Assembly: GCF_002102355.1 (NCBI RefSeq)
Contig: NZ_LQPT01000099.1
Location: 116,848-180,847, forward strand
DNA: 64,000 nucleotides
Source of the DNA: Mycobacterium sherrisii
Lineage (GTDB): Bacteria > Actinomycetota > Actinomycetes > Mycobacteriales > Mycobacteriaceae
Direction: 5' to 3'
The notes under the pieces are model-generated. The model had not been told where the DNA came from and did not search any database. It was given only the letters and a program-made list of their open reading frames with translations. The position numbers were made by a program, and so were the translations under genes. Below, piece after piece: positions 9,391 to 35,453 of this stretch (its first letter is position 1; each line of letters starts with the position of its first letter).

Positions 9391-9397
9391 GGCTCGC

Positions 9398-12334
9398 GTG
9401 ACCACAGAACCGATCCGCATCGAACAGTCCGAGCGGTCCGCGGAGAAGCCGCCGGTCGCCAAGGCACTTCGCAGGCTGTCGGCGCTCACCATCCTGGGCT
9501 GGGTGGCCCTGACGTTGCTGGTGACCTTCGCGGTTCCCTCACTGGAGCGAGTCGGCCGCGAGCACTCCGTGCCGTTGGCTCCCCAGGACGCGCCGGCGGT
9601 CCAGGCAATGCTGCGGATGGGCAAGGTCTTCAAAGAGTCCGACTCGGACAGCTTTGTCATGCTCGTCCTCGAGGGCCAGCACGAGCTCGGCGACAATGCG
9701 CACCGGTACTACGACAAGCTGGTTCGCGAGTTGCGAGCCGATACCAAACACGTTGAGCACGTACAGGATTTGTGGGGCGACCGGCTCACCGCCGCGGGCG
9801 CGCAGAGCGCCGATGGTAAGGCCGTCTATGTCCAGTTGAACCTGGCCGGAAACCAGGGCACCACGTTGGGCCAGGATTCGCTTGCGTCGGTCCGGGGCAT
9901 TCTTGCTAAGAACCCGCCACCGCCCGGCATCAATGCCTATGTGACCGGCCCGTCAGCGTTGTTCTCGGACATGCAGCAGGCGGGCGATAGATCCATCCTG
10001 AAGATGACCGCGGTGGGCGCGGTGATCATTTTCGTGGTGCTGCTCTTCGTGTACCGGTCGATCATCACCGTGATCCTGCTGCTGATCACCGTCGGTATCG
10101 AGGTACTCGCCGCTCGCGGAATTGTCGCGTTTCTCGGTGATCACAGTCTGGTTCAGCTGTCGACCTTCGCCGTGAACCTGCTGGTGGCCCTGGCAATGGC
10201 GGCCGGCACCGACTACGGCATCTTCTTCTTCGGCCGATATCAAGAGGCACGGCAAGCGGGTGAGGACCGAGAAACCGCGTTCTACACCACTTTTCAAAGC
10301 GTTGTTCCCGTTGTCCTGGGTTCCGGTTTGACGATCGCCGGCGCCATGCTGTGCCTGAGCTTCACCCGCATGCCGATTTTCCAGACGATGGGTGCGCCGT
10401 GTGCGCTAGGCATGGTCGTGTCCGTGGTGATCGCGCTGACGTTGGTGCCGGCGGTCATCACCATCGCGAGCGGTGTCGGGTTACTTGACCCCACCCGGGC
10501 CATCCGCTTCGGTCGGTGGCGCCGGATCGGCACGGCAATAGTGCGCTGGCCCGCGCCCATTCTGATCGCGACGATCGCCGTCGCCCTGGTCGGTCTGGTG
10601 ACATTGCCGGGCTACCAGACGAGTTACAACAACCGGCTCTACATGCCCGACGACATTCCCGCCAATGTCGGCTACGCCGCCGCCGACCGGCACTTCTCGC
10701 AAGCCCGCATGTTGCCGGAAATCGTGATGATCGAGTCCGATCACGATATGCGCAATCCTGCCGACTTCATCGTCCTGCACCGACTAGCCAGGGGAATTTT
10801 CAAGATTCCGGGGATCGCGCGCGTTCAGGGCATCACGCGCCCCGAAGGCACGCCGATCCAACACACGTCGATTCCTTTCATGCTGAGCATGCAAAACGCA
10901 GCCCAGACGCAAAATGTGAAGTACTTGAACGCCCGCATGGATGACATGCTGCACCAGGTCGCACTAATGGATGTTCAGCTCGCCTCGATGAGGCGTTTGT
11001 ACGAACTGCAGAAAGAACTCACCGCTCTCACGCACGATTCGATTGTCAAGACCGGCGAAATGACGCAGATCCTCTACGAGCTGCGGAATCGTTTCGCCGA
11101 TTTCGAGGACTTCTTCAGGCCAATCAAAAGCTACTTTTACTGGGAAAAGCATTGTTTCGACATTCCCATTTGCTGGGCGCTGCGAAATATTTTTGACACG
11201 CTCGACGGGGTGGACGAGCTGAGCGACAAGCTCGGGGATCTACTGGTGGACCTCCACAAGATGGATGTGTTGCTGCCGAAGCTGCTCGAGCAGTATCCGC
11301 AGATGATCGCGACCATGGAGTTCTTCAAAAAGACGACGCTGACGATGCACAGCACGATGTCCGGAATTCTCGGACAGGTGAACGTCGACAGCAAGGACGC
11401 CACCGCGCTCGGCCAGGCGTACGACGACTCCAAGAATGACGACTCGTTCTACCTGCCCCCGGATATTTTCAAGAACCCGGATTTTCAGAAGGCCATGACG
11501 CAATTCCTGTCACCGGACGGGAAGGCGGCGCGTTTCATCATCTCCCACAAGGGGGACCCGGCATCGCCGGAGAGCGTGGACCGCGTCGACAAGGTGCGAA
11601 CGGCGGCCGAGGAAGCGCTCAAGACGACTCCCCTGGAAGACGCCAAGATCTATGTCGCCGGAACCGCGTCAACGTTTAAGGACTTCAAGGACGGGTCCAA
11701 GTTCGACCTGTTGATCGCCGGAATCGGAGCTCTGTGCCTGATTTTCACGATCATGCTCATCATCACGCGCAGTTTTGTTGCGGCGCTGGTGATCGTCGGC
11801 ACGGTGGCCCTCTCCCTCGGCTCCTCGTTCGGGCTGTCAGTGCTGATTTGGCAGTACATCCTGGGCATCAAGCTGTACTGGATGGTTTTGCCGATGTCGG
11901 TGATCGTCCTTCTTGCGGTCGGATCGGACTACAACTTGTTGCTGGTTTCCCGCATGAAAGAGGAAATCGCCGCCGGCATCAACACCGGCATCATTCGCGC
12001 CATGGGCGGCACCGGCAAGGTCGTGACCAACGCTGGACTGGTGTTTGCCTTCACCATGTCGTCCATGGCATCCAGCGACTTGCGCATCATCGGTCAGGTC
12101 GGTACGACGATCGGCCTCGGCCTGTTGTTCGACACCCTGGTCGTGCGCTCGTTCATGACGCCGTCAATCGCGGCGCTGCTGGGGCGGTGGTTCTGGTGGC
12201 CACAGATCGTCCGACCGCGGCCGTCCAGTCAAATGTTGCGGGCCGAAGGCCCGCGCCCGTTAGTCCGCGCCCTGATAGGTCGGGAGTTCCAAGATGACGC
12301 CGCCACGGCCGAGATCCCGAGGCAGTCGGTCTAG
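9398..12334 (+). CDS. mmpL4b: MmpL4b-type RND transporter for GPL
   Basis: 978 residues, a full-length paralogue of the preceding gene with the same motifs ([16 protein letters not shown] near 270; [12 protein letters not shown] near 842) and the same second loop ([20 protein letters not shown], matching [20 protein letters not shown] in MmpL4a). It starts GTG seven bases after the mmpL4a stop. The strong similarity of neighbouring genes shows an old tandem duplication retained as a pair. The C-terminus has a short polar extension. Probably part of one export complex with MmpS4 and MmpL4a. Confidence 0.92.
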
Positions 12335-16000: not shown

Positions 16001-16963
16001 TTACTGGCGGGCGACATCCACGTTTGCGCGATACCAGGCGATCGTGGACTGGATGCCTTCGCGCAGTGTGATTTTGGGCCGCCAACCCGATTCCCGTAAC
16101 ACGGAGACGTCCAGCAGTTTGCGCGGTGTGCCATCAGGTTTTGTTGGGTCCCAGCGTGTTTCACCGGTGTAGCCGACAGCGTCAGCAACCATGTCTGCGA
16201 TCTGGCTGATGGTGTGGTCGATGCCGGTTCCCACGTTGACATGGGTAGGCCCGTCGAAGCGTTCCAGGAGGTGCAGGCAGGCACTCGCCAGATCGTCGAC
16301 GTGGAGTAATTCGCGCTGCGGCGTGCCGGTCCCCCAGTTCGTCACCGTGGGGGCACCACTGGCCTTGGCCTCCTCGTAGCGCCGGATGAGCGCCGGTAAC
16401 AGGTGTGAGCCGGAAGGCGAAAAGTTGTCCTCTGGCCCATAGAGGTTGGTGGGCATTGCTGAAATCCATGCCAAGCCGTGCTGACGCCGAACCGCCTGCA
16501 CCTGAAGGATTCCGGCGATCTTGGCGATCGCGTAGGCGTCGTTGGTCTGTTCCAGTGGACCGGTGAGCAGTGCGTTCTCCGGAATGGGTTGCGGGGCGAA
16601 CTTCGGGTAGATGCACGACGATCCGAGGAACAGCAGCCGCGGTACTCGGGCGGCCACCGCGGCGTCGAGGAGGTTGACCTGAATCTGCAAGTTCTCCGAC
16701 AGGAAGTCGGCGGGATAGGTGTTGTTGGCCATGATGCCGCCGACGCGCGCCGCCGCGTCGATGATCACCTGCGGCCTCGTCTCCAGGATGAAGTCGAACG
16801 TCGCGGCTCGGTCCGTCAGGTCGAGCTGATCATGCGACCGCACAACAAGATTCGTGAAGCCCTCCGCCTCGAACGTGCGGACCAACGCGGATCCGACCAG
16901 CCCGCGGTGCCCGGCGATGTACACGGGTAGCGCGCGGTCCAGGGTGCCGATTGACGTCTCCAT
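16001..16963 (-). CDS. fcl: GDP-L-fucose synthase-like epimerase/reductase
   Basis: 320 residues, extended SDR fold: nucleotide motif GHRGLVG (18-24), FLGSSCIYPKFAPQPIPE with the catalytic Ser near 115, and Y144-x3-K148 (YAIAK). These match Fcl/WcaG enzymes, which epimerise and reduce GDP-4-keto-6-deoxymannose to GDP-L-fucose. The ATG at 16963 lies eight bases after the gmd stop, so the two genes form one transcript. The pair parallels M. tuberculosis gmdA-epiA (Rv1511-Rv1512). The product could feed fucose residues or, with altered stereochemistry, another 6-deoxyhexose such as the 6-deoxytalose of GPLs. Confidence 0.88.
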   Translation of the reverse strand: METSIGTLDRALPVYIAGHRGLVGSALVRTFEAEGFTNLVVRSHDQLDLTDRAATFDFILETRPQVIIDAAARVGGIMANNTYPADFLSENLQIQVNLLDAAVAARVPRLLFLGSSCIYPKFAPQPIPENALLTGPLEQTNDAYAIAKIAGILQVQAVRRQHGLAWISAMPTNLYGPEDNFSPSGSHLLPALIRRYEEAKASGAPTVTNWGTGTPQRELLHVDDLASACLHLLERFDGPTHVNVGTGIDHTISQIADMVADAVGYTGETRWDPTKPDGTPRKLLDVSVLRESGWRPKITLREGIQSTIAWYRANVDVARQ

Positions 16964-16971
16964 GCCGGTGC

Positions 16972-17994
16972 TCAGCTCCAGCCGGGAAGGGTCGGCTTGT
17001 CGATCCATGGTCGGCCGTCGCAGTCGAGTGCGGCGATGTCGGCGTCCACCATGATCCGGGCGAGTTCGCCCGTGTGCACCGATGCCTTCCATCCCAGCGA
17101 CTGGGCGGCCTTGGTCGAGTCGCCGATCAGCGAGTCCACTTCGGTGGGCCGCAGATAGCGATCGTCGAACTTCACGTGCTTCTGCCAGTCGAGCCCGGCG
17201 TGCTCGAATGCGGTCTGGGCAAAGTCGCGCACCGAATAACTGCGCCCGGTCGACAGCACGAAGTCCCCGGGTTCGTCGGCCTGCAGCATCCGCCACATCC
17301 CTTCGACGAACTCCGGCGCATATCCCCAGTCACGCACGGCATCGAGATTGCCTAGATACACCTCGGATTGCACGCCGGCCTTGATCCGGGCTACCGCGCG
17401 CGTAATCTTTCGAGTCACGAATGTCTCACCGCGCCTTGGCGATTCGTGGTTGAACAAAATGCCGTTGACTGCGAATAATCCATACGCTTCGCGGTAATTG
17501 CGGGTGACCCAATAGGAATAGACCTTTGCCGCACCGTACGGTGACCGCGGGTAAAAGGGTGTCTGCTCGTTCTGCGGCGGCGGGGATGCGCCGAACATCT
17601 CCGACGACGACGCCTGGTAGAAGCGGCAGTCGACGCGGGACAGGCGGACCGCCTCCAGCAGGCGGATCGATCCCATCCCCGTGGTGTCGCCGGTGTGTAC
17701 CGGTTCGTCGAAGCTGACCCGCACGTGCGACTGTGCCGCCAGGTTGTACACCTCGTCGGGGTCAATCGTGCTCAGCAAGGTCACCAACCGGGTCCCATCG
17801 GTCAGATCCCCGTAGTGCAAGAACAATCGTGCGTCCGGTTGGTGGGGGTCGACGTAGAGGTGGTCGATCCGGGACGTGTTGAAGGTGGAGGCTCGGCGGA
17901 TGAGCCCGTGGACCTCGTACCCCTTGGCGAGCAGCAACTCGGCTAGGTACGAGCCATCCTGCCCGGTGATCCCGGTGATCAGCGCTCTCTTCAC
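16972..17994 (-). CDS. gmd: GDP-mannose 4,6-dehydratase
   Basis: 340 residues with the NADP motif TGITGQDG (7-14), [10 protein letters not shown] (about 126-135), and the catalytic YGAAK (Tyr153, Lys157). [17 protein letters not shown] and the late [11 protein letters not shown] are Gmd-specific. The enzyme converts GDP-D-mannose to GDP-4-keto-6-deoxy-D-mannose, which the adjacent Fcl would reduce. It is the first gene of a leftward two-gene operon; about 180 bases separate it from the divergent FkbM gene at 18174 and must hold both promoters. Confidence 0.93.
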
Positions 17995-18173: not shown

Positions 18174-18941
18174 GTGAAAATGATTCAGCAAACTGCGGCA
18201 AGCATTAGGACCCGCGTCAACGAGTATTTTTACAAACGCCGACTTCCCTTCGTCGCGACCGTGACGGAATTCGATGCCGCTGGCGTGCGGTTCGAGATTA
18301 GCAATCTCGTGGAAACCTTCCGCGTGCTCGAGCATGGCGGCGAGACGGAATACACCGCCGCGATGCTCGCCGACCTGTGCCCCGACGACGTATTGTTCGA
18401 CATCGGCGCCAACATCGGCATGGTCGCACTCCATGCCGCGAAGATCTGCCGCACCGTTGCTTTCGAGCCCGACCCCGCCATCCAACGTCGACTCACGGTC
18501 AATAGCAACCTCAATCCTGATCGGAGTTTCGCGGTCGAACCGATCGCCGTCAGCGACGCAGACGGCAGCGTTTTGCTATATACCGACGGCGACGACGGCA
18601 ACAGTCCAAGCTTGGTTCATCAGCGTGGTGAAAGTGGCAGCGTCCCCGTCACCGCTCGGTCGTTGGATAGTCTCATGGCCGAGGGCCGACTACCGCGCCC
18701 GACTGTGATCAAGCTTGATGTTGAGGGCGCCGAGATCCTCGTCTTGCGAGGGGCTAAGCGGTTGTTAACTGGACCGAACCGACCTCGGGCTCTGTTCATC
18801 GAAGTCCACGACACGTTCCTTCCGGGGTTCGGTTCGTCGGCCGAAGAGGTAAATACGCTGCTCAAAAAATTTGGGTACAGCAACGCCACCTACCGATCCG
18901 AGCGCTGGGACCAGACACATCTGATCTTGCACGCCTCATGA
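18174..18941 (+). CDS. FkbM-family methyltransferase
   Basis: 255 residues. Motif I is FDIGANIGMVALHA, followed by AFEPDP, and the FkbM signature VIKLDVEGAEILVLRGA appears later. A GTG start at 18174 (or ATG at 18180) follows GGAAGG. Expected to be a SAM-dependent sugar O-methyltransferase. It is divergent from gmd, and its 3' end overlaps the convergent FkbM gene by six bases. It is a different subgroup from that neighbour, so this is not a recent duplication. Confidence 0.8.
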   Translation: MKMIQQTAASIRTRVNEYFYKRRLPFVATVTEFDAAGVRFEISNLVETFRVLEHGGETEYTAAMLADLCPDDVLFDIGANIGMVALHAAKICRTVAFEPDPAIQRRLTVNSNLNPDRSFAVEPIAVSDADGSVLLYTDGDDGNSPSLVHQRGESGSVPVTARSLDSLMAEGRLPRPTVIKLDVEGAEILVLRGAKRLLTGPNRPRALFIEVHDTFLPGFGSSAEEVNTLLKKFGYSNATYRSERWDQTHLILHAS

Positions 18942-19706
18942 CTCGGCCCAGCGGCGAATGCGCATCCGCCTGACGGCGGATTGCCCTGCCCGTTCAATGG
19001 ATTCGAGCAAAGACGGGTCGACTGCGATGAGGTTGCCCCACGTATCACCGCCAAGCTCGGTCGGGTATCGCGCGAAACGTCGCCACGTATGCCGAACGCC
19101 GTACTGGGTGATCGGTTCCCACTCCGAGACCACGATGGAGTAGCCCTGCTGCTGCAAGAATCGTGCGATGTCGTGCACGTCGTAGCCCAATCGGGTTGTC
19201 TTGTTGTCCTCGAACTCACACACCACGGCCTTGGGATGCAGCGTGTCCCAGGGGAATGTGCGCAGCACGAACAGGTCGAACCCTTCGGTGTCGGTCTTCA
19301 GGAAATCGACTTGCTCGATGCCGTGCTCCCGGATGTAGGTGTCGAGCCGCACGGTTCGCACCGTGGTGGTCGGCGTATGAGTCGAGTGAAACGGCGACAG
19401 GGTGCTGATGCCCGTCGAAACGTCACTGGTAAACAGCTGGACCTCGTCACCGTCCCGCTCGGATATCGCGCGCGGATCGATGGTCAGGTTCGGAAAGCGC
19501 TTGGACAGGATCGCACGATTGGCCGGGTCGGGTTCAAACGCGTAGACCGTCCACTTGCGTACCAAAAATGGTGCGGCCGAATACCCTTGGTGCGCTCCCA
19601 CGTCGAGCATGGTCCCCGGCGTCCTGCCGATGGCATAAAACACCATCCCGACCTCGTCGAGATCCCACGGTGGCAACACTCGCCGCGCCAATGCCTTCAA
19701 AACCAT
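18936..19706 (-). CDS. FkbM-family methyltransferase
   Basis: 256 residues, with motif I MLDVGAHQGYSAAPFL, then YAFEPDPANR and the signature VDFLKTDTEGFDLFVLRTFP. The family usually has Lys-x-Asp-x-Glu-Gly here, and this is intact. It lies 49 bases downstream of the DUF115 gene on the same strand, so it is probably the last gene of the CMP-sugar operon and may methylate the residue that operon adds. The ATG at 19706 follows AGGTGA. Confidence 0.8.
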   Translation of the reverse strand: MVLKALARRVLPPWDLDEVGMVFYAIGRTPGTMLDVGAHQGYSAAPFLVRKWTVYAFEPDPANRAILSKRFPNLTIDPRAISERDGDEVQLFTSDVSTGISTLSPFHSTHTPTTTVRTVRLDTYIREHGIEQVDFLKTDTEGFDLFVLRTFPWDTLHPKAVVCEFEDNKTTRLGYDVHDIARFLQQQGYSIVVSEWEPITQYGVRHTWRRFARYPTELGGDTWGNLIAVDPSLLESIERAGQSAVRRMRIRRWAES

Positions 19707-19755: not shown

Positions 19756-20544
19756 TCATGTATTGAGGGCCTCTTCGAGGGAAAGCTTGGGAAACACCGT
19801 CAACGCGCCGTCGACGGTCGCGTCGACTATGCGCCGGCCGTCCTCCTCGAATGCCTTGCGGGCCAACCGGTATGCGATCTCAGAGTTCTCCAAATCGGGC
19901 AATTGCCATTTGAACCCCTTGGGGAAATACTGCGGGTCGAAATGGCTGGCGTCCGGTCCGGTCGACTCGACCAGTTGGTTGGGGGTGCCGCTTACGGCGA
20001 AGCGGTGATCGACGCCGATCAGTATGACCTCAGAGAAGCCCATGTAGTAGGCGAGCTGCATCGCCACGTAGGTGACCGTATAGCCTTCCCACACTCCGCG
20101 GGCGGCATCACGCGAGAAGTACGGCCACAACCCGACGATCGTGTTGAGAAACGCAGTATTGGTTGCGCCGTCGAGGAATTCGCGGTTCAACGCGGTGGTG
20201 AACAGGGGTGCCTTGATCTTGCGAAAGTCATCGGCACATTGTTCAACCACATGCCGATTGATGACGACATGGAAGCTCGTCTCGAATCCGAGTTCGTCGA
20301 ACATCAAGTAGATGCGGTTGAGGCCAAACGTGTACTCGTCCCGCAACAGCCCCATGTTCGTGTTCTTCAGGCTGGGACCGTTGCCGATGATGACGCACCG
20401 GTCACCGCGATGAATCCCGCTGAACTGGCGTATAAATGCGTGGTTTGCCCGGCCTGCAGAGGTCAATGTGTCGTTCAACCAGTATTGCGTGCTCGCGATG
20501 GAGCGGGTCAGGATGCGGGCGGAGTGCTCACGAAACATGTTCAC
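19756..20544 (-). CDS. DUF115 / GT42-like putative glycosyltransferase
   Basis: 262 residues. The core motif VIIGNGPSLKNTN (about 51-63), then FGLNRIYL (73-80), a helix-strand block at 157-180 ending LIGVDH, and Asp-Ala-Ser-His-Phe at 198-202. These run in the same order as the motifs of GT42 sialyltransferases such as Campylobacter CstII (GNGPSLK, CNQFYF, a GID motif, NSHY). DUF115 is also the core of Maf flagellin glycosyltransferases, which use CMP-activated nonulosonic acids. The start is GTG at 20544 with GAGGAG upstream. It is the fifth gene of a tight operon whose second gene encodes a CMP-sugar synthetase. A role as the transferase for that CMP-sugar is inference. Confidence 0.65.
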   Translation of the reverse strand: MNMFREHSARILTRSIASTQYWLNDTLTSAGRANHAFIRQFSGIHRGDRCVIIGNGPSLKNTNMGLLRDEYTFGLNRIYLMFDELGFETSFHVVINRHVVEQCADDFRKIKAPLFTTALNREFLDGATNTAFLNTIVGLWPYFSRDAARGVWEGYTVTYVAMQLAYYMGFSEVILIGVDHRFAVSGTPNQLVESTGPDASHFDPQYFPKGFKWQLPDLENSEIAYRLARKAFEEDGRRIVDATVDGALTVFPKLSLEEALNT

Positions 20545-20559
20545 TGAGTGCCGATCTCC

Positions 20560-21282
20560 TCACTCGGATCCCAGACGGGCGGTGGCCCCGCCGTCGACCA
20601 CCAACACCGTTCCGGTGATGAAACGCGCGTCGTCGCCGATCAAGAACGACACCGCTCCGGCGACGTCGCCGGGCTCCCCGATGCGCTGAAGCGCCGTGCG
20701 CTGGCGCAACAGTTCTTTGCGTTCCTCGGCGGTCTCCCCCCAACGCGCGAACCCCTCGCGTAGCTTCGCCGTGTCGATTGCTCCAGGCGCGATGGCATTG
20801 ACGCGGATACTCGGCGCCAAATCCATGGCCGCAGAACGCACCCACCCCTCCAGCGCGGCCTTTGTTGTGGCATACGCCGTGATGCCACCGGTGGTGGCCC
20901 GACCATGCACGCTGCTGATGACGACCACCGAACCATCGTTCGCGGCCAGGCTTTCGCGCGTGCCCGAAACCAAGGCATCGACAGCAAGCACATTGACCCG
21001 CAACGCATTCGCCCACTCATCGAACGGCGTGTCCCCCGCCCCCGCAATCGGCTGCACCGCGCCGTTGTGGACGACCGCTTTGAGCTCGTAATCGCTGCCC
21101 AGCCGCCGGCCCAGCTGTACCAGCTGCTCGGACTCCCCCAGGTCGACCTGCAAATGCAGATCGGCCGCCGGCGCGACATTCCTGTCGATACCGATCGCAA
21201 GGTACCCGTCTTTGCGCACGCGTTCGCACAGGGCGGTACCGATCCCCCCGGCGGCGCCGGTGACGATGATCGCGGCGCTCAC
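20560..21282 (-). CDS. Short-chain dehydrogenase/reductase
   Basis: 240 residues, classical SDR: TGAAGGIG (8-15), NNAG position read as HNGA near 72, Ser123/124, Y137-x3-K141 (YATTK), and a C-terminal GTVLVVDGG. It overlaps the upstream dehydrogenase by four bases (ATGA). SDRs next to CMP-sugar synthetases (PtmA with PtmB in Campylobacter) occur in nonulosonic-acid gene sets, so oxidation or reduction of the acid sugar precursor is plausible. The substrate cannot be told from sequence. Confidence 0.75.
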   Translation of the reverse strand: MSAAIIVTGAAGGIGTALCERVRKDGYLAIGIDRNVAPAADLHLQVDLGESEQLVQLGRRLGSDYELKAVVHNGAVQPIAGAGDTPFDEWANALRVNVLAVDALVSGTRESLAANDGSVVVISSVHGRATTGGITAYATTKAALEGWVRSAAMDLAPSIRVNAIAPGAIDTAKLREGFARWGETAEERKELLRQRTALQRIGEPGDVAGAVSFLIGDDARFITGTVLVVDGGATARLGSE

Positions 21283-22211
21283 CGGATCAGCTCCTCTATC
21301 AGGAAGTCGACCGCCGTGGCGCTTGCGCGCACCACACCCTCGCGCGTGTTGGATCCGTTGTGCGCACCAAGCACAACATTGGGCAGCGTCCGAAGCTCAC
21401 TGTCGAGCGGCAACGGCTCGACCTCGAACACGTCGAGCGCCGCCCCCGCGAGCCGGCCGTTCTTCAGCGCCTCGATAAGATCTTTCTCCACGACGACGGG
21501 ACCGCGGGCCACATTGACCAGAAAAGCGTCCGGACGCACTAATGCGAGACGCTCGGCGTTGACCAGGCGTAATGTCTGCTGCGTCAACGGACACGCCAAA
21601 ACAATGAAACGGCTTGTTGCCAAAAGCTTCTCGAGCTGGACGATCGGCACGTCGGACTGGGCGGCATCGATGAGCGGGTCGTGGGCAACGACATCCATGT
21701 CGAAACCCTTTGCCCGCTTGGCGATTTCACGACCAATCGCACCGTAGCCCACGATTCCGAGCTGCGCGCCGGCAAGCGTGACACCCTCGAACTTCGGCCA
21801 TTCACCACGGCGTACGGCAGCGTCCACCGCGATGTAGCCGCGAACCAGGTTCAGGATGTAGCCGAACGCCGCATCAGCGACCTCCTGACCAAATACCCCC
21901 GGGGTGTTGCGTACCGTAACTCCACGCTCACGGGCGGCCTCATGATCAACGGAGTCCATGCCGATCCCCCAGCGGATCACCGTCTTCAGGTTGGGGGTTC
22001 CGTCGAAGAACGTGCGGTCGAGTTCGTCATCGCCGGCGATGATGCCGACCAAACGGTCACCGTACTCGAGCAGCTCGGCAGCGCTGAATTGTTGGCGCCC
22101 ACCCAGATCGGGCGCCAGCACGTCATAGCCGAGCTCCTCGATCCGGTCGCGGTGCCGCGGCAGCTCGATCTGCATCTGCCGGCACGTCACGAGGATCAGC
22201 GGGGCGCTCAT
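21279..22211 (-). CDS. D-2-hydroxyacid dehydrogenase
   Basis: 310 residues, SerA/GyaR/VanH superfamily. NAD motif LGIVGYGAIGR (151-161); catalytic Arg236 in NVARGPVV, Glu in VFEVEP (262-266), and His284 in LGAHNGSN. The enzymes interconvert 2-keto acids and D-2-hydroxy acids. It overlaps both neighbours by four bases, which puts it in the middle of a coupled pathway rather than in general serine metabolism. It might make a hydroxyacyl substituent or act on a keto-acid sugar precursor. Confidence 0.8.
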   Translation of the reverse strand: MSAPLILVTCRQMQIELPRHRDRIEELGYDVLAPDLGGRQQFSAAELLEYGDRLVGIIAGDDELDRTFFDGTPNLKTVIRWGIGMDSVDHEAARERGVTVRNTPGVFGQEVADAAFGYILNLVRGYIAVDAAVRRGEWPKFEGVTLAGAQLGIVGYGAIGREIAKRAKGFDMDVVAHDPLIDAAQSDVPIVQLEKLLATSRFIVLACPLTQQTLRLVNAERLALVRPDAFLVNVARGPVVVEKDLIEALKNGRLAGAALDVFEVEPLPLDSELRTLPNVVLGAHNGSNTREGVVRASATAVDFLIEELIR

Positions 22212-22882
22212 GTGCGAATTCCATTGGTTTCGGCGAGGGCGGCCGCCAACAGGAAATCGTCTTCGTTGTCGATGTCCACGGCCTCCAGCGGAGCCATCTC
22301 CACCGTGCGAGGATGCGCACCGATGCGAGTTCCTCGTTCACGCAACAACTCCGGGGTGAAGATGAAGAAACAAGAATTCTCGATGAACAGCGGCGGCAGA
22401 TCCTGCGTCCGCAGTAAAACCGACGGATCGTGATTGACGGGCCGCATTTCGCCGTCCCAGAGGCGAGCCTGCAGACGCGTCACACTGAACACCGAGTCGT
22501 ATTCGGGATGCGAGGATTGAAATAGTTTCAGCGCCGCCGACACCGTGCTGGACTTGAGAAACGGATTGGTCGAGTGGGTCTGCAGCACCACGTCGGCAGC
22601 GACCTGCTCAAGCGTGTTCAGGAGCACGTCGTTCATGGCGATGTTGCCGTCGCGCAGCTGCTCCGGGCGCAGCAGCACCTGCACCTGCGGGAAGTGTTCG
22701 GCGCAGTCCTTGATGATGAAATCACTGTCGGTGTCGACGACGATCAGGTCGATCTCGGGCACCGCAACCAACGTCCGGACGACGTGGTGGTACAACGGAA
22801 TTCCCGCCAGCGGGCGGTAGTTCTTCCCGGGGACGCGCTCACTGTTGTGGCGCATCGGAACGATCGCGACGGTGCGGCTCAT
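22208..22882 (-). CDS. CMP-acid-sugar synthetase (acylneuraminate cytidylyltransferase family)
   Basis: 224 residues. The N-terminal CTP-binding motif is IVPMRHNSERVPGKN (7-21), the equivalent of IPARxGSKxIPxKN in NeuA/KdsB/PtmB. QTHSTNPFLKSS matches the LQPTSPLR region, FIENSCFFIF the NGAIYI region, and the metal/sugar segment EAVDIDNEDDF ends the protein. Members transfer CMP from CTP to the anomeric hydroxyl of a 2-keto-3-deoxy sugar acid, or to related acids and phosphonates. It overlaps the dehydrogenase gene by ATGA and follows the GT2 gene by 21 bases. No synthase for sialic acid, legionaminate or Kdo is in the window, so the acid remains unknown. Confidence 0.78.
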   Translation of the reverse strand: MSRTVAIVPMRHNSERVPGKNYRPLAGIPLYHHVVRTLVAVPEIDLIVVDTDSDFIIKDCAEHFPQVQVLLRPEQLRDGNIAMNDVLLNTLEQVAADVVLQTHSTNPFLKSSTVSAALKLFQSSHPEYDSVFSVTRLQARLWDGEMRPVNHDPSVLLRTQDLPPLFIENSCFFIFTPELLRERGTRIGAHPRTVEMAPLEAVDIDNEDDFLLAAALAETNGIRT

Positions 22883-22903
22883 TGCTCCCTAACGGTCGGT
22901 GAT

Positions 22904-23884
22904 TCAGGAGTCTTCGGAGTAGACGATCTTGCGACCCGGCGCGGGCGCGGGCTCACTGCTTTGCGATTCGGCCGGATAGTAGAAGCGCTCCAACAACCGC
23001 GCCGATACATGGTCGGGCTCCCGAAAGCCTTGCCATGCCCCGATGAACTGAGCGAATCGAAACTGCGGGATGCTCAATGCGTTACTGCGCCACAGGTTCG
23101 CCTTCACCGCGTCCCGGTAGTCGCTTGCGATGTTCGTCAGCGCAAGACTTAAGGCCCGCGGCAATGACATTTCCGACCCTTTGACGATCCGGGCATAAGC
23201 CATCGCCTCGCGCCGATACCGATTGCGAATGGTGCTCCATGTCTCCTCGTGCACATGCACCACCGGCGCATCCGCGACGTAGGCGATCTTGTACCCCTTG
23301 TCCAGGGCCTTCTTGGCGAAGTCGAGGTCTTCAAGGCCGGTGAGAGTCTCGTCGTAGTGCGTTTCCTCCCACACTGACCTCAAAACCGCTGCATTGGCGT
23401 TGTTACTGAACGGGTGGCCCTGGTCCCAGATGTTCTGGTTTGGAAACCATTTCAGCATCACCCGCGATTCGGAAAACTTGGTCCGCTGATCACCGACTTG
23501 GCGCCCGTAGGCAATGGCCACGCCTTCGCGCTCGAAGGCGCCGACGATGTGCTCCACGTAGGTGTTGTAGACCGGATACACGTGCGCCGACGCAAACAGC
23601 AAGATGTCGCCCGTCGCCACTGAGCAGCCTCTGTTGAGCGCACGCCCAAAAGAGAATTCATTTTTCGCGATGTGCACGATGGTGCAACCGGCGGCTTCGG
23701 CGATCGCAACCGTATCGTCCGTGGACCCCGAGTCGACCAGGATGATCTCGTCGAGTTTGACGGTCTGCTGCTCGAGTCCCTTCAGCAACCGGCCGATGTG
23801 TTTTCCTTCGTTCAAGGCGCGGATCACCGCCGACACCCGGCGCCGCGAACTGTTCTCACTCATCGCTGGCGAGCTTGCCCCCAT
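22904..23884 (-). CDS. Family 2 glycosyltransferase
   Basis: 326 residues with a GT-A fold start VSAVIRALNEGKHIGRLLKGL and DSGSTDDT near 52. Where most GT2 enzymes show an Asp-x-Asp, this one has FASAHVYP, a variant seen in rhamnosyltransferase-like GT2 proteins; the acceptor-side GLEDLDFAKKAL and a C-terminal helical region are present. A second Met at 23863 is a possible start. It is the first gene of the tight operon with the CMP-sugar synthetase. It probably adds a neighbouring sugar; donor unknown. Confidence 0.75.
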   Translation of the reverse strand: MGASSPAMSENSSRRRVSAVIRALNEGKHIGRLLKGLEQQTVKLDEIILVDSGSTDDTVAIAEAAGCTIVHIAKNEFSFGRALNRGCSVATGDILLFASAHVYPVYNTYVEHIVGAFEREGVAIAYGRQVGDQRTKFSESRVMLKWFPNQNIWDQGHPFSNNANAAVLRSVWEETHYDETLTGLEDLDFAKKALDKGYKIAYVADAPVVHVHEETWSTIRNRYRREAMAYARIVKGSEMSLPRALSLALTNIASDYRDAVKANLWRSNALSIPQFRFAQFIGAWQGFREPDHVSARLLERFYYPAESQSSEPAPAPGRKIVYSEDS

Positions 23885-24091: not shown

Positions 24092-24958
24092 TCACCCGGC
24101 AAATGCGGCGACAACGGCGCCTTGCACCTGGGTGTGAACGGTAAATATGCCGCCGGCAGAAGGCTCCTCATGGTCAGCCAATCCCTGGCGTGAGGTGGTG
24201 ATGAATAGCAGGTCGCGGTCCTTGCCGCCAAACGCGCATGAACTGACCTGGCTCACACCGGGCACGCCGATCGTCTCGACCAGCTGGCCCGCCGCGTCGT
24301 AATGGATGACGGCACCCCCGCCCCATAACGCAATCCAGAGCCCATCGTCTTCGTCGATGGCCATGCCATCGGGATATCCCGCTGCGTCATCAAGGTGCAA
24401 GTGGGGGCGCCGACCAGACCACACACCCGTGTCGGCGTCGACGTCGAAGACATCCACCCGCCTCGTCGGGGTGTCGATGTAGTAGGCACGAGTACCGTCC
24501 GCCGACCACTGCACACCGTTCGAGATCGACACCGGTGATAGCAGCTCGACGACCTCGTGCTTGGGCGTCAGCCGGTAGACAGCCCCCGCACCTGGTCGTT
24601 CGTCGTAGGCCATGGTGCCGATGACGAAGCCGCCGGCCGGGTCACATCCGCCGTCGTTGGTCCGCACGTTCGGATCGTTGGTGATCGTCGCGATTGGTTC
24701 ATAGCTAGACAGGCATTCATCGGCACCGAAGACGCCGCGTTCGGTGGCGATCACGAAGCCGCCAGCTGTGCGGCGCCTGATTACCGTGACGACCGGGCTC
24801 GGCCCCTGAAAGCGGGTCACGCTACCGGATGAATCGAGCGAAACGATCTCGCCTGCGAGCACGTCCATCGACAGCAACCGACTCGATGGCGCATCCCAAA
24901 AGGGCCCTTCACCGTGGTAGGCCACCGGCGAAGTTACCCGTTCGGCGGTGCGCGCCAC
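24092..24958 (-). CDS. SMP-30/gluconolactonase-family protein
   Basis: 288 residues, six-bladed propeller. Metal-site positions are visible: Glu in HGEGPFWD, Asn in VRTNDGGCDP, Asn in SNGVQWSADG and Asp in AGYPDGMAID. The family hydrolyses sugar lactones and related esters. The start is GTG at 24958, 12 bases after the upstream FkbM gene, so these two are co-transcribed; about 200 bases separate it from the GT2 gene downstream. It may open a sugar lactone in the acid-sugar pathway, or be unrelated. Confidence 0.75.
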   Translation of the reverse strand: MARTAERVTSPVAYHGEGPFWDAPSSRLLSMDVLAGEIVSLDSSGSVTRFQGPSPVVTVIRRRTAGGFVIATERGVFGADECLSSYEPIATITNDPNVRTNDGGCDPAGGFVIGTMAYDERPGAGAVYRLTPKHEVVELLSPVSISNGVQWSADGTRAYYIDTPTRRVDVFDVDADTGVWSGRRPHLHLDDAAGYPDGMAIDEDDGLWIALWGGGAVIHYDAAGQLVETIGVPGVSQVSSCAFGGKDRDLLFITTSRQGLADHEEPSAGGIFTVHTQVQGAVVAAFAG

Positions 24959-24970
24959 AGGTATTGGCGC

Positions 24971-25732
24971 CTAAAGCTCGTACGCGGCGCGAATCGCCTC
25001 GGCGACCGGTCCGACCGCGCCACGGCGCAAGAAGACGCAATCGTTCTGCGAATCGAACGTCCCGTGTGGCGGATACTCCTTCACCAGGCTGAAGCCCAGT
25101 CCGTCGGCAATCTCCTCAACCTCGGGTCGCAGCGCTATCCCTTCGTACAGCGGGATTTTGAATAGCTCCAGGTGCAAGGCAAAGCAGTCTCCACCAGCGA
25201 GATAGTTGGCCGCTCCTTCTAGAATTTGACGCTCGGCACCCTGCGCATCGATCTTTAAAACGTGATACCGCTCGGGGCGTTCGGCTAACACGGTGTCTAG
25301 TGTCGTGCACTGAATCTCCTCAGTGTGATCCAGGCGCACACGTTCAAACCAAGTTTCGGCGAGATGGGATGGCCCAATGCTGCGTAGCCTCTCGAAGTTC
25401 TCACGGACGTAGTCGGAGTTTGCACGAAACAGTGACGACCCGTGGCCAGCCTGGCCGGAGTAGACGTAAAAGGGCAGCGTAGCCGGTTGGCTCCACAGAG
25501 CAGCGTCAATGGTCACCACCTGAGGTTGCTCCTCGCGCGGATCTCGCGGCTCGAATTTAAGGACGCGGCTAACAAGGTCGGATCGCTGATGCCATGGGTC
25601 CGGCAAATCGCCGACCGAGCCGACGTCGATCAGTCCGACGACACCTCGGCCGCCGCGATTGATGACGCCGTATCCGCGCACCCTGTCGATCGCGCTCTGC
25701 GCGAGGCGGTAGACGGATTCGAGCGTCCCCAT
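24971..25732 (-). CDS. FkbM-family methyltransferase
   Basis: 253 residues starting MGTLESVYRLAQSAIDRVR. Motif I is GLIDVGSVGDLP, with LKFEPRDP after it, and the signature HVLKIDAQGAERQILEGA. The ATG at 25732 follows GAGGAGG; reading frames opening upstream add non-homologous residues. The N-terminal half is shorter than in the other FkbM proteins here and resembles the subgroup that carries YSGQAGHGSSLF. It heads the leftward run of genes that continues to 18936. Confidence 0.78.
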   Translation of the reverse strand: MGTLESVYRLAQSAIDRVRGYGVINRGGRGVVGLIDVGSVGDLPDPWHQRSDLVSRVLKFEPRDPREEQPQVVTIDAALWSQPATLPFYVYSGQAGHGSSLFRANSDYVRENFERLRSIGPSHLAETWFERVRLDHTEEIQCTTLDTVLAERPERYHVLKIDAQGAERQILEGAANYLAGGDCFALHLELFKIPLYEGIALRPEVEEIADGLGFSLVKEYPPHGTFDSQNDCVFLRRGAVGPVAEAIRAAYEL

Positions 25733-25990
25733 GCGTCCTCCTCTGTCAGGCCACGCCTGATTGCACGTCCAAGGCCAAAGTCTGGCACGAACAGAAAGTT
25801 CCCCGCAGGCAATGCTGACATGCGTCCTAGTCCGGTCCGACCGGCGCCTCGCCGGGACGGACGGAATGGACCGGTCACATCGGAACCGCGTCACCGGACC
25901 ACCGAAAAAATTTCGACGGTGATGTTACGATCGCCGAGTGAGCGAAACTAAATCGCGCCAAATTGTCTGGAAATGCACGATCAGTAACGC

Positions 25991-31131: not shown

Positions 31132-32388
31132 GTGAAGTTTGCCCTGGCGAGCTACGGGACCCGCGGCGACATCGAACCCAGCACCGCCGTCGGGCGCGAA
31201 TTGCGACGCCGCGGTCACGACGTCCGCCTGGCCGTTCCGCCCAACCTGGTGGGCCTGGTCGAGTCGGCCGGGCTGGAGGCGGTTGCTTACGGGCCGGATC
31301 AGCAAGAAGGGTTCTGGGATGTCGATTTCCTGCGCAAGTTTTGGAAGGTCAACGAGGTAATCGCCTCCTGGCGCGAGGTCCAGGAACTCTTGGCGCAGTC
31401 TTGGGCGGAGATGAGTACCACGCTGGTCCGGCTCGCGGACGGGGCCGACCTGCTGTTCACCGGGCCCGGTTTTCCGGGGGTGCCCGCCAATGTGGCCGAG
31501 TACTACCGCATTCCGCTGGCCAGCATGCATTACTTCCCAATGCTGCCGAACGGTCAGGTCGCTCCGGGTGTGCCGGCGCCGCTGGTGCGCGCCGCCGTGC
31601 GGGCACTCGACTGGCCGCAGCGGTTCGTCACGAAGCGAGCCGAGGACGCGCAGCGCCGAGAATTGGGTCTGCCGAAGGCCACGGGCCCGGCACCTCGACG
31701 GATCACCGCGCGCGGAGCGCTGGAAATCCAGGCCTACGACGAGGTGTGCTTTCCGGGCCTGGCCGCCGAATGGAAGAAATGGGGCGATCGACGCCCCTTC
31801 GTCGGCACGTTGACGATAGAGATGGCCACCGACGCCGACCAGGAGGTTGCGTCCTGGATCGCCGCCGGGACACCGCCCATCTTCTTCGGGTTCGGCAGCA
31901 CGCCGGTGCGATCGCCCGTCGAGACCATCGACATGATCGGCGCCGCCTGCGCGCAGTTGGGCGAGCGCGCACTGGTTGCTTCCGGGCAGACCGACTTCAG
32001 CAATGTCCCGCAGTTCGACCATGTCAAGGTGGTCGGCCCCGTCAACTACGCGAAAGTTTTTCCCGCCTGTCGCGCGGTGGTGCACCACAGTGGGGCGGGC
32101 ACCACGGCCGCGGGTTTGCGTGCCGGGGTGCCCACCCTGAGCCTGTGGAGTCTGGGCGATCAACGGATCTGGGCGGGCCAAATCAAACGGTTGAAAGTGG
32201 GTACTGCCCGGCCATTTTCGGCCACAACCCGGGAAACCTTGGTCACCGACTTGCGCGAAATCCTCGCCCCGGACTGCGTCGCACGCGCCCGCCAGATCGC
32301 AACGCGGATGACGACAGCCGCCGAAAGCGCCACCAAGACAGCCGATCTCCTCGAGAACTTCGCCCGCGTGCCGGCGACGAGCAACTAG
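31132..32388 (+). CDS. GT1 glycosyltransferase, GPL type
   Basis: 418 residues, GT-B fold of the MGT/UGT type found in GPL loci (GtfA, GtfB, RtfA). The start MKFALASYGTRGDIEPSTA is the signature N-terminus. The donor-site motif is VHHSGAGTTAAGLRAGVPTL, differing at two positions from the HHGGSGTTAA of the other three copies here. GSTPV replaces GSMPV in the nucleotide-binding loop. Start is GTG at 31132. It is followed 24 bases later by a second GT1 in the same direction. Which sugar it adds cannot be told from sequence. Confidence 0.87.
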   Translation: MKFALASYGTRGDIEPSTAVGRELRRRGHDVRLAVPPNLVGLVESAGLEAVAYGPDQQEGFWDVDFLRKFWKVNEVIASWREVQELLAQSWAEMSTTLVRLADGADLLFTGPGFPGVPANVAEYYRIPLASMHYFPMLPNGQVAPGVPAPLVRAAVRALDWPQRFVTKRAEDAQRRELGLPKATGPAPRRITARGALEIQAYDEVCFPGLAAEWKKWGDRRPFVGTLTIEMATDADQEVASWIAAGTPPIFFGFGSTPVRSPVETIDMIGAACAQLGERALVASGQTDFSNVPQFDHVKVVGPVNYAKVFPACRAVVHHSGAGTTAAGLRAGVPTLSLWSLGDQRIWAGQIKRLKVGTARPFSATTRETLVTDLREILAPDCVARARQIATRMTTAAESATKTADLLENFARVPATSN

Positions 32389-32412
32389 ACGACTGGAAGG
32401 CTAAGCTGCGCA

Positions 32413-33687
32413 ATGAAATTCGCCCTGGCCAGTTATGGAACGCGCGGTGACGTCGAACCCTCCGCAGCTGTGGGCCGCGAGCTTGCACGGCGGGGCCATG
32501 AGGTCTGCCTGGCCGTCCCCCCCGGGCTGCTGGACTTCGCCGAGGCCGCAGGTCTGTCCGCCGTCTCGTACGGACCCCCGATTGAAGAATTCTTGGACGA
32601 GGATTTCCTGCGCAACATGTGGACGGATTTCTTGCGCAGCGCGTGGACAATTCACGGGCCGATCAACCTCGTGCGCAAAATATGGGAGCCCATCAACGTA
32701 CACTGGGCGCAGGTGAACAAGACGCTGCTGGCCCTGGCGGACGGAGCCGACCTGCTGTCCACCGGAATCAATTTCGAGCAAGCCGCCGCCAACGTGGCCG
32801 AGCACTACGACATCCCGCTGGCCACCCTGCATCACTTCCCGATGCGGGCCAACGGCCAGCTGGTCCCCACTTTTCCGGCGCCGCTGGTCCGGTCGTCGAT
32901 GACCGCGATCGAATGGCTGTTTTGGCGCTCGACGAAGAAGGTCGAAGACGAGCAGCGCCGCGAACTCGGCCTCCCCCCTGCGACATCGCGCTCCCAACGC
33001 CGGATCGCCGACCGCGGATCCCTGGAGATCCAGGGTTACGACGCGGTGTGTTATCCCGGTCTGGCCGCCGAATGGGCGAAATGGGGTGGTCACAGGCCCT
33101 TCGTCGGTGCCCTGACGATGGAACTGGCCACCGATGCGGACGACGACGTGGTGGCGTGGATCGCGTCGGGAACACCACCCATCTGCTTCAGCTCGGGCAG
33201 CATACCGGTCGAATCTCCCACCGAGATGGTGGAGATGATCGCCGAGACCTGCGCGCTGTTGGGCGAGCGCGCCTTGGTGTGCTTCGGCGGCACGGACTTC
33301 GCCGACGTTTCGCCTCCAGACCATGTGAAGCTGGTGGGACCGGTGAACTACGCGACCATTTTCCCGGCGTGTCGGGCGGCCGTGCACCACGGCGGTTCGG
33401 GCACCACGGCCGCGAGCCTGCGGGCCGGAATTCCCACGCTGATCCTGTGGAGCTCGGCCGATCAACCGTATTGGGGAGCCCAGGTGAGGCGATTGAAAGT
33501 CGGTGCTGCCCGGCGGTTTTCGGCGACCACCCGGGCGACGCTGCTGGCAGACCTGCGGGAGATCCTGGCGCCGCCGTACGCCACCCGTGCTCGCGCACTC
33601 GCGACCCAGCTGACCGCACCCGCCGACAGCATCGGCCGCACCGCGGATCTGTTGGAGGGCGCGGCCAACCGGAAGTCGTTCGGCTAA
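32413..33687 (+). CDS. GT1 glycosyltransferase, GPL type
   Basis: 424 residues, paralogue of the preceding gene: N-terminus MKFALASYGTRGDVEPSAA, donor motif VHHGGSGTTAASLRAGIPTL, FSSGSIPVESPTEMVEM. The ATG at 32413 follows AAGGCTAAG. The 3' end overlaps the convergent methyltransferase by four bases. Members of this family in the M. avium complex transfer 6-deoxytalose or rhamnose onto the lipopeptide; this copy is not assignable to either. Confidence 0.87.
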   Translation: MKFALASYGTRGDVEPSAAVGRELARRGHEVCLAVPPGLLDFAEAAGLSAVSYGPPIEEFLDEDFLRNMWTDFLRSAWTIHGPINLVRKIWEPINVHWAQVNKTLLALADGADLLSTGINFEQAAANVAEHYDIPLATLHHFPMRANGQLVPTFPAPLVRSSMTAIEWLFWRSTKKVEDEQRRELGLPPATSRSQRRIADRGSLEIQGYDAVCYPGLAAEWAKWGGHRPFVGALTMELATDADDDVVAWIASGTPPICFSSGSIPVESPTEMVEMIAETCALLGERALVCFGGTDFADVSPPDHVKLVGPVNYATIFPACRAAVHHGGSGTTAASLRAGIPTLILWSSADQPYWGAQVRRLKVGAARRFSATTRATLLADLREILAPPYATRARALATQLTAPADSIGRTADLLEGAANRKSFG

Positions 33688-34493
33688 ACCGATCCTTGCG
33701 CCGGCTTGATCAGCAGCCCCTGGCCGGTCGGCAACGAACAGATCGGCACGCCCAATTCCACTGCCAGCGCATCCATCGCGGCGCGCTGCTCGTCGCGTCC
33801 GCGGTTCGCATAGTCATCCAACAGGACGAAGGCACCCGGAGTGAGGCGCGGCCAGAAATGGCGCAGCGCGGCGACTTCGGGTGGGGCACAGTTCATGTCG
33901 ATATGCAGGTAAGCCACCGCGCTGGCCTCGACCTGGTCGAGCGTCTCCGGAACCGCACCGACGATGATGCGGTGGTTCTGCCACTGGGCGAAATTGGCCC
34001 GGACGCCGTCGACACCGCTGACGTACATGCCGTTGCGGAGCTTGGACTGGCTGCGCTCGACCTCCCCCGATTGACGTTCGGCGTCTGTGACAAAGCGCGG
34101 ATCGATTCCCGCGAAGGTGTCCAGCAGATAGAACGTCTTGCCAAGCCGGTCCCAGTCCAGGTGCTCCATGATGGCGCTGCTCAAGAACCCATAGCTGACG
34201 CCACATTCGACGAAGTCGCCGTCCAGCTTGCTCGCGTTCTCCGCCGCCCACAGGCCGACGTGCACCCGCCATTGCCACTGATACCAATCCGGGTCGGGCA
34301 GGGCACGCGCGCCGCGCTGGTAGGCGCGCTGGAAGGCCGGGTTCTCGAGGAACGCATCGTTGTGGAAGCTGATCAGCCCGTCGCTCGCATAGACATCGGG
34401 CAGCAGGGCGCGCGCGAGCCAATATTCGGTGCGCACCCACCACATCAGTAGTCGAGTTTTAGCGTCTAGACCGGTTGCCACGGCGGCAACCAT
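33684..34493 (-). CDS. TylF/MycF-type O-methyltransferase
   Basis: 269 residues. Motif I DGDFVECGVSYGFLSSAIM, the FYLLDTFAGID block, VAYLHIDMNCAPPE and GAFVLLDDYANRGR match TylF-family macrocin O-methyltransferases, Mg-dependent enzymes acting on sugar hydroxyls. YLHIDMNC replaces the usual LDGDLYEST, so the metal site differs from the two near-identical copies further right. It is the last gene of a leftward set with 34647, 35681 and 37187. Confidence 0.8.
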   Translation of the reverse strand: MVAAVATGLDAKTRLLMWWVRTEYWLARALLPDVYASDGLISFHNDAFLENPAFQRAYQRGARALPDPDWYQWQWRVHVGLWAAENASKLDGDFVECGVSYGFLSSAIMEHLDWDRLGKTFYLLDTFAGIDPRFVTDAERQSGEVERSQSKLRNGMYVSGVDGVRANFAQWQNHRIIVGAVPETLDQVEASAVAYLHIDMNCAPPEVAALRHFWPRLTPGAFVLLDDYANRGRDEQRAAMDALAVELGVPICSLPTGQGLLIKPAQGSV

Positions 34494-34646
34494 AACACTG
34501 GCGCTTACCGCGCCTGCGCCGAATCGGACGGGTTGCTAGTGCGATACCGAATTGCAAAACCTGTTCTTGGGCACGGTTTTTAGCCGACCGGCCGGTGCCG
34601 ATCGTGCGGGTGAAGAGCAATTCCCGCTGCTACCGTTGCGGGATGG

Positions 34647-35453
34647 TTACGGCTTTCGCCACAGCACGCCCGTGCCGTCGATTTCTTGGATTTCCGCGGT
34701 GATCCCGTGCTTGTTCCGGTAGTCGGCGACCGCCTGCTCGCACGGTTTCAGCGCGTGGTAGTCGTCGATGATGCAGAAGCCCCCGGACGATAACCGCGGA
34801 TACAGCGCATCCAACGCCTGAATCGTCGACTCGTACAAGTCGCCATCGAGCCGCAACACCGCGATCTGCTCGATCGGAGCGTCGGCCAACGTATCCTTGA
34901 ACCACCCCGGCACAAAACGCACCTGATCGTCCAACAACCCATAGCGTTCGAAGTTTGCCCGGACCACCGATTCGGGGATTCCCAGCACATTGGCATGCCG
35001 ATCCAGTCGAATCCCTTTGTCGGCCTTGTAATTCACCGTATCCGGCGGCGGCACGCCCTCGAACGAATCACACAGCCATACCCGCCGCGTCTGGTCGCCG
35101 TAGGCCGCCAGCACCGCGCGCATCAAAATGGACGCCCCGCCGCGCCACACGCCGCACTCGACCAGATCCCCCGGCACGTCGTCGGCCAACACGGTCTCGA
35201 CGCAATGCTGCAAGCTGGTCAACCGCTGCATCCCGATCATCGTCAACGCATCCGCCGGCCAATCCAGGCCGCGATCCCGCGCGTACGCGTTGAACGGCCG
35301 CTTCCGCACCAGCATGAAGTTGCGCGTGTTGAAGATGGGTCGTCCCAGCCGATACCACCCCACCGGCACCAGCTCGTCCTGACCGTAGCGTGTCAGGTCG
35401 CGACGGAGCAGATCAAGATAGGCAGACCGCGCGTCGGTTTCCGTCACGGTCAA
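34647..35453 (-). CDS. TylF-type O-methyltransferase, copy A
   Basis: 268 residues. Motif I is GDLVECGVWRGGASILMRA, followed by WLCDSFEGVPPPD; metal-binding acidic residues lie in RLDGDLYEST and CIIDDYHAL. The enzyme family 3-O-methylates deoxyhexoses (TylF, MycF; MtfB/C/D in GPL clusters). It differs from the gene at 38487 at only about 25 of 268 residues by ungapped hand alignment, with most changes in the first 60 residues, around 150-170 and after DDYH. About 230 bases separate it from the GT1 upstream. Confidence 0.87.
   Translation of the reverse strand: MTVTETDARSAYLDLLRRDLTRYGQDELVPVGWYRLGRPIFNTRNFMLVRKRPFNAYARDRGLDWPADALTMIGMQRLTSLQHCVETVLADDVPGDLVECGVWRGGASILMRAVLAAYGDQTRRVWLCDSFEGVPPPDTVNYKADKGIRLDRHANVLGIPESVVRANFERYGLLDDQVRFVPGWFKDTLADAPIEQIAVLRLDGDLYESTIQALDALYPRLSSGGFCIIDDYHALKPCEQAVADYRNKHGITAEIQEIDGTGVLWRKP

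Follow-up and report, generated by a model that had tools for sequence, protein, structure and literature searches.

Which activated sugar is made and transferred by the enzymes encoded in the glycopeptidolipid (GPL) region of Mycobacterium sherrisii? The window analysed here, 64,000 nucleotides of contig NZ_LQPT01000099.1, contains an operon of five genes, all on the minus strand, which an earlier note had described as pairing a synthetase of cytidine monophosphate (CMP)-sugars with a GT42-like transferase and had taken to point to new chemistry on a mycobacterial glycolipid. The genes encode a GT2 glycosyltransferase (22904-23884; PF00535, 83.2 bits), a NeuA/KdsB-type cytidylyltransferase (CT), the proposed CMP-ulosonate synthetase (22208-22882; PF02348, that is CTP_transf_3, 107.9 bits against a cut-off of 22.6), a D-2-hydroxyacid dehydrogenase (2HADH), proposed to oxidise an aldonate to the 2-keto acid (21279-22211; PF02826, 192.7 bits; PF00389, 49), a short-chain dehydrogenase/reductase (SDR), proposed to be an aldose 1-dehydrogenase (20560-21282; adh_short_C2, 135.5 bits), and a DUF115 protein of the GT42/Maf fold, the proposed CMP-sugar-acid transferase (19756-20544; PF01973, of which DUF115 is the former and MptE-like the present name, 49.3 bits against a cut-off of 34.6). 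The junctions measure +21, -4, -4 and +15 bases, and the third-position GC content of 0.76-0.80 across the five open reading frames (ORFs) is coding-like. The ORF and Pfam analyses thus reproduced the operon as described, with its coordinates, overlaps, gaps and family names. At E <= 0.001 the whole genome has a single PF02348 match and a single PF01973 match, both of them in the operon, and the order of the five genes is not due to chance, because it recurs in distant phyla.

The answer that we favour, at roughly even confidence, is that the operon belongs to a portable cassette for making a 2-keto sugar acid (ulosonate) activated with CMP and for transferring it, by a route with no phosphoenolpyruvate (PEP) condensation. 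In this pathway the SDR would convert an aldose to its lactone, a gluconolactonase of the SMP-30 type (elsewhere a PF04199 cyclase-type hydrolase) would open the lactone to the aldonate, 2HADH would oxidise C2 of the aldonate to give a 2-ketoaldonate, the CT would turn the latter into CMP-2-ketoaldonate, and the GT42/Maf-like DUF115 protein would transfer the activated sugar acid; GT2 would add a partner sugar and FkbM enzymes would O-methylate. We infer every one of these reactions, the sequence and direction in which they run, the acceptor and the involvement of CMP, whereas the families, the fold, the linkage and co-occurrence of the genes, the lack of NeuB and the lack of any sign of KdsA were directly observed. 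Support for the proposed route comes from the likeness of the CT to NeuA and KdsB, from the Maf- and sialyltransferase-like fold of the DUF115 protein with its weak CstII and WaaZ matches, from the nesting of DUF115-bearing genomes within CT-bearing ones, from the proximity and correlated distances of CT and 2HADH, from the kinship of the SDR with aldose dehydrogenases, from hydrolases that never occur together, and from the lack of NeuB and of any sign of KdsA.

As the earlier note had held, the CT is a member of the superfamily of CMP-ulosonate synthetases: all 18 PDB matches of its profile at E <= 0.001 are NeuA or KdsB, and it carries the R..S.R..KN and DID motifs of these enzymes. It scores 70.7 bits to PseF, for which the cut-off is 205.7, and, judged from its sequence, is a separate subfamily within the superfamily. 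Its His103 aligns with the Gln of three NeuA chains (residue 104 of 1eyr), a Gln that appears to mark NeuA in our reading of these alignments, so that the CT does not have the canonical NeuA residue. His103 is present in every aligned CT with an adjacent 2HADH, and Gln in the NeuB-linked mycobacterial CTs of loci L106 and L107. As a marker of non-NeuB substrates His103 was nevertheless rejected, because two CTs from enterobacterial plasmids (L012, L109) share the His although they are NeuB-linked.

For the DUF115 protein, structural comparison (VIA-align) agrees with the GT42/Maf-like fold claimed before, matching it to Maf and to CMP-using sialyltransferases. The weak profile match by sequence is to CstII and Cst-I (domain E 0.014 for CstII), which we take to be members of family GT42 and to which the protein is 13-19% identical. 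In this match GNGPSL and the Asn that follows line up with CstII, and H180 and H201 are conserved; GT42 enzymes presumably have a CMP-binding Asn pair and a catalytic His, the latter without a firm counterpart here. A CMP-Neu5Ac (CMP-N-acetylneuraminic acid) donor is improbable here. A local NCBIfam match over residues 143-181 (E 3.6e-8, 33 bits against a cut-off of 200) is to WaaZ, the Kdo-III transferase (Kdo, 3-deoxy-D-manno-octulosonic acid), whereas this genome shows no sign of Kdo synthesis. A close parallel is Maf flagellin glycosylation, which likewise combines a NeuA-type CT with a PF01973 domain, termed Cst-II-like in the extract of PMC11339370, where Maf enzymes use CMP-nonulosonates and two of them CMP-Kdo. 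That pathway uses NeuB, whereas the cassette has 2HADH, SDR and lactonase instead and lies in a glycolipid or polysaccharide locus. Unlike MptE, a 6-hydroxymethylpterin diphosphokinase, the DUF115 protein is linked to a CT and to polysaccharide genes, and its public annotation as a pterin kinase looks misleading; the pterin-kinase reading survives as no more than a minor rival. In rhodobacteral and related plasmids (L125, L126, L127), PF01973-type proteins of glycan loci are also annotated as 6-hydroxymethylpterin diphosphokinase MptE-like, probably misleadingly.

A CT scan of genome contigs gave 27 loci, including ones in mycobacteria, Arthrobacter, Bacteroidota, a cyanobacterium, a deltaproteobacterium, a Chloroflexi bin and Methanogenium, some of them without the cassette; phage records gave no CT match. 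The CT-2HADH pair is again accompanied by GT2 and SDR in Arthrobacter, cyanobacteria, the deltaproteobacterium and the archaeon Methanogenium; variant forms occur in Bacteroidota and on alphaproteobacterial plasmids, and a lactonase-type hydrolase is often present as well. Neighbourhoods were tabled for 45 loci, of which L045 was dropped (CT below threshold), leaving 44; a gene was scored as present by similarity to its single reference protein, in stretches of 6-20 kb. L031 and L037 share a genome, and L024 and L027 are short contigs. The table omits the distant NeuB-linked CTs (L012, L106, L107, L109), another CT (L108), loci from the same genomes as L022, L023, L028 and L025 (L098-L101), DUF115 neighbourhoods (L102-L105), short search loci (L001-L008, L046-L088) and plasmid loci (L125-L128). 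2HADH lies within 215 bp of the CT in 34 of the 44 loci, and these 34 cassette loci hold GT2 in 32 cases (0-5.9 kb from the CT), SDR in 30, PF01973 in 19, a GTGPSL-motif protein in its place in 8, KdsA in one and NeuB in none. The GTGPSL-motif protein ('GT42alt', c11), found in mycobacteria, a cyanobacterium and the archaeon (L022 14350-15543 and relatives, L042 6189-7355, L090 5119-6372), occurs in all 8 cases without DUF115 in the stretch; the Methanogenium cassette has it, in a genome that gives no PF01973 match to P0001. Two members scanned gave no real Pfam match, and kinship with DUF115 is not claimed (profile comparison of motif length only, probability 7.9; best PDB E 0.58); it is possibly an analogous transferase. 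FkbM and DUF115 are fused, with a further C-terminal region, in a 1011-amino-acid (aa) protein (L037 5748-8783), and two Bacteroidota genomes keep 2HADH, SDR and PF01973 together, with the CT elsewhere (L102, L103 versus L032, L036). From gene content, then, the cassette is a portable module found in many polysaccharide loci across phyla. The idea of a GPL-specific innovation is not supported, because the cassette recurs outside GPL loci and in distant phyla. In the open-licence literature (titles and abstract starts, among the matches listed) no description of this cassette was found, and its novelty is provisional, the subscription literature lying mostly outside the search.

At E <= 0.001 no NeuB match was found in the genome (completeness 100), while the same search was positive in 9 of 14 control genomes. 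There is likewise no sign of KdsA: PF00793 gave two contig-edge pieces, which probably belong to one gene, and the larger, the one that was scanned, is aroFGH (377 bits against 173). The nonulosonic acid or Kdo donor that the earlier note had implied is therefore unlikely. Among CT loci NeuB is found in none and KdsA in one of the 44 tabled, from which four NeuB-linked distant CT loci were left out, and NeuB is also missing from the 26 loci that entered the table directly from the CT scan. CT genes near NeuB (PF03102, 135 and 209 bits) occur in two same-genus genomes, G184 (L106 9284-11829) and G175 (L107 5677-10557), which, unlike the window, may be true nonulosonic acid loci. Enterobacterial plasmid capsule clusters (L012 10367-11911, L109 11367-12911) hold a CT, an inositol monophosphatase and a NeuB-family protein, which in L012 has, in its N-terminal part (before NeuB at 257), a GKGPS motif resembling the DUF115 one. 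The K3 4-deoxy-2-hexulosonic acid, from the reference list of PMC10433991, is no more than a lead; the plasmid loci found in E. coli and Enterobacter are NeuB-linked.

The chemistry of the remaining enzymes is hinted at by their relatives. PDB matches of 2HADH include phosphoglycerate dehydrogenase (PGDH), glyoxylate reductase and 2-ketogluconate reductase, and R236, E265 and H284, presumably the Arg/Glu/His set of this family, are conserved in 90% or more of 22 sequences. For the SDR, the top 3 of 16 PDB matches are glucose 1-dehydrogenase or related (two of the three share one molecule name), and Y137 and K141 are conserved in 90% or more of 19 sequences. SMP-30 is present in 14 (within 7.1 kb of the CT) and the PF04199 cyclase, which resembles arylformamidase, in 9 of the 34 cassette loci, and never both in one locus; the two seem to replace one another, which would be explained by a lactone-opening step. 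The SMP-30/gluconolactonase gene of the window, proposed to be the lactonase of this pathway, lies at 24092-24958 on the minus strand (PF08450, 238 bits), and in L018 such a gene overlaps that of the SDR by 4 bases.

In three samples taken together, all 21 DUF115-bearing genomes or plasmids also have a superfamily CT. In the same genus PF01973 relatives are found in 7 of 198 genomes and the CT in 13 (11 at 56-100% identity and two, at 33-34%, near NeuB), and all 7 are within the 11. The cyanobacterial sample has PF01973 in 8 of 244 genomes and a CT of at least 38% identity in 10, again with all 8 within the 10, the CT cut (10 of 30 genomes matching at 1e-20) having been set afterwards at the gap from E 1.9e-43 to 1.8e-36; in G654 more than 60 kb separate the two genes. 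Relatedness is not taken into account in the hypergeometric values (1.6e-10 and 1.6e-13). PF01973 relatives were found in 6 of 72,556 plasmid records, all six with a CT next to 2HADH: five are the five best CT plasmid records, and the sixth, from Leisingera, scores 32.4 bits, slightly below the 34.6-bit cut-off, its own PF02348 gene adjoining 2HADH. CT matches occurred in 65 plasmid records; the neighbourhoods examined were five from the CT search and four from the PF01973 search, one shared. In the phylum sample a CT at E <= 1e-30 is present in 1 of 296 genomes, that of the window. Distances of CT and 2HADH correlate with r 0.87, and with 0.70 in 12 diverse loci, a subset that was our choice, as was the L011 copy of DUF115. 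In this subset r is 0.25 for CT and GT2 and 0.34 for CT and SDR. Co-evolution of the whole cassette was thus rejected; since the correlation persists for CT and 2HADH alone, that pair is the stable heart, with the other genes exchanged.

The surroundings of the operon are of the GPL type, and here the earlier note held good. Two ORFs of 2556 and 3436 aa (C99, 103722-111392 and 111392-121702, the second ending inside the window) resemble non-ribosomal peptide synthetase (NRPS) genes, a call made on size and on what we take to be carrier- and condensation-type motifs. An MmpL pair lies on the plus strand at 6493-12334 (PF03176, 749.5 bits for 9398-12334), its other member being named on the match of 6493-9390 to DNA beside the other MmpL in three same-genus genomes (G132, G164, G039). 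GPL-type glycosyltransferases and a TylF methyltransferase occupy 31132-36982 (PF06722/PF03033 at 32413-33687, PF05711 at 34647-35453; synteny in the same three genomes); one or two each of the GT28/EryCIII-type glycosyltransferase, MmpL and TylF genes were Pfam-tested. Matching GPL genes flank the cassette in G132, G164 and G039, and L019 contains the end of one GPL-type glycosyltransferase, its cassette probably lying in GPL surroundings. The content expected of a GPL locus (two large NRPS genes, MmpL pair, glycosyltransferases, methyltransferases) is thus present together, and resembles the mps1-mps2, mmpL4a-mmpL4b, gtf and rmt genes of PMC1885439. That paper tables the GPL genes of M. smegmatis, M. 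abscessus and M. chelonae, and the stem 'cytidylyl' occurs 0 times in its main text; by this main-text word search those genes include no cytidylyltransferase, in contrast to the locus here. Attachment of the residue to the GPL is plausible given these neighbours, and the cassette product probably decorates the GPL glycan in this strain. Acidity in itself would be no novelty for a GPL: according to the extract of PMC6801904, serovars 8 and 21 of M. avium-intracellulare have pyruvylated (pyruvate ketal) GPLs that are already published.

Several observations weigh against the CMP-2-ketoaldonate pathway. SDR and 2HADH are large versatile families whose matches are merely suggestive of a reaction, and 2HADH may work as a reductase. 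No 2HADH is near the CT in 10 of the 44 loci; 7 of the 34 cassette loci have neither DUF115 nor the GTGPSL-motif protein in the stretch covered, and 11 have neither hydrolase. The presence of a CT predicts DUF115 less well than the reverse (11 of 20 CT-chosen genomes or records have PF01973, 9 have no match), r for CT and PF01973 is 0.14 in the diverse subset, and two other Bacteroidota genomes (L104, L105) have DUF115 without 2HADH or SDR alongside. The DUF115 fold is also shared with pterin and thiamine pyrophosphokinases (VIA-align), and a GT2-CT fusion of 573 aa (L093 4252-5973) leaves the user of the CMP donor ambiguous between the transferases. In Acuticoccus an HpaI/GarL-type aldolase and a HAD phosphatase stand at CT-2HADH, with no SDR or lactonase there, and in Leisingera SIS, inositol monophosphatase (IMPase) and Gfo/Idh/MocA genes instead surround the pair; because of these other supply genes the starting sugar may vary by lineage, and 2HADH could act in either direction.

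The aldolase adjoining the Acuticoccus CT would suit a donor that is a CMP-3-deoxy-2-ulosonate or nonulosonate of the Kdo, Kdn (deaminated neuraminic acid), sialic or legionaminic type, made by an aldolase or an unrecognised synthase. The superfamily of the CT, the Maf-like fold and local WaaZ match of DUF115, KdsA/KdsB genes ~7 kb from the cassette in Thalassovita and the NeuB linkage of more distant superfamily CTs (L012, L106, L107, L109) are consistent with such a donor. We nevertheless consider it unlikely, given the genome without NeuB and with an aroFGH as its larger PF00793 piece (HpaI-type and other aldolases being outside that search), the near absence of NeuB and KdsA from the 44 tabled loci, the NeuB-linked ones being omitted there, and the His in place of the NeuA Gln, though the NeuB-linked enterobacterial plasmid CTs also have His. 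Still less probable is that the CT activates a plain, glycerate- or lactate-like 2-hydroxyacid supplied by 2HADH and that DUF115 transfers a nucleotidyl or phospho group rather than a glycosyl one: CT and 2HADH are indeed the most tightly coupled pair, and pyrophosphokinases share the fold, but the PDB and family matches of the CT are chiefly ulosonic-acid enzymes, the nearest described activities in glycan loci are Maf and GT42, and the lactone hydrolase would have no clear role. A different question is the acceptor, since the cassette might decorate a separate polysaccharide or lipooligosaccharide and not the GPL, which is compatible with the 2-ketoaldonate chemistry and which we regard as somewhat doubtful. 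In many other mycobacteria (L020-L023, L025, L027-L029) the cassette lies near Wzy- or flippase-type, Wzc-like or sugar-transferase-like genes, some Pfam-checked and others (several of the Wzc-like, DUF4012-like and sugar transferase neighbours) named by eye from sequence, and 0 of 12 GPL-locus queries matched these loci. The cassettes of the window, G132, G164 and G039, however, lie between or close to GPL glycosyltransferase and mps/mmpL genes, and the 20 window proteins run against Pfam, in a search that was not exhaustive, include no Wzy-type gene.

Other genes stand beside the cassette. FkbM-type methyltransferases are encoded on the minus strand at 24971-25894 (PF05050, 41.9 bits), possibly O-methylating the added sugar, and directly after DUF115 at 18936-19706 (PF05050, 81.2 bits), and a third FkbM gene lies at 18174-18941 on the strand opposite to the cassette (80.8 bits); SMP-30 and FkbM genes are also found beside the operon in relatives. 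A GDP-mannose 4,6-dehydratase and an epimerase (16001-17994, minus strand; Pfam) are repeated neighbours, which seem to travel with the cassette because the copies in Arthrobacter (L030 11458-13448) are 80% and 63% identical to those of the window.

To our knowledge, CMP-activated sugar acids are made by condensation with PEP or pyruvate, as by NeuB and KdsA. A phylum-crossing cassette that has an activating and a likely transferring enzyme but lacks a condensing one suggests an activated sugar that has gone unrecognised, and we tentatively propose a further route to CMP-sugar acids, in which a whole aldose would be oxidised to a non-3-deoxy 2-ketoaldonate without PEP or pyruvate, with the residue expected on mycobacterial surface glycans (among them GPL) and on those of cyanobacteria, Bacteroidota and an archaeon. 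The cassette, small soluble enzymes plus a transferase, is a directly testable set, and it offers a likelier role for those glycan-locus proteins that carry a pterin-kinase annotation. If the proposal is true, a new acidic residue is suggested for a mycobacterial surface glycolipid.

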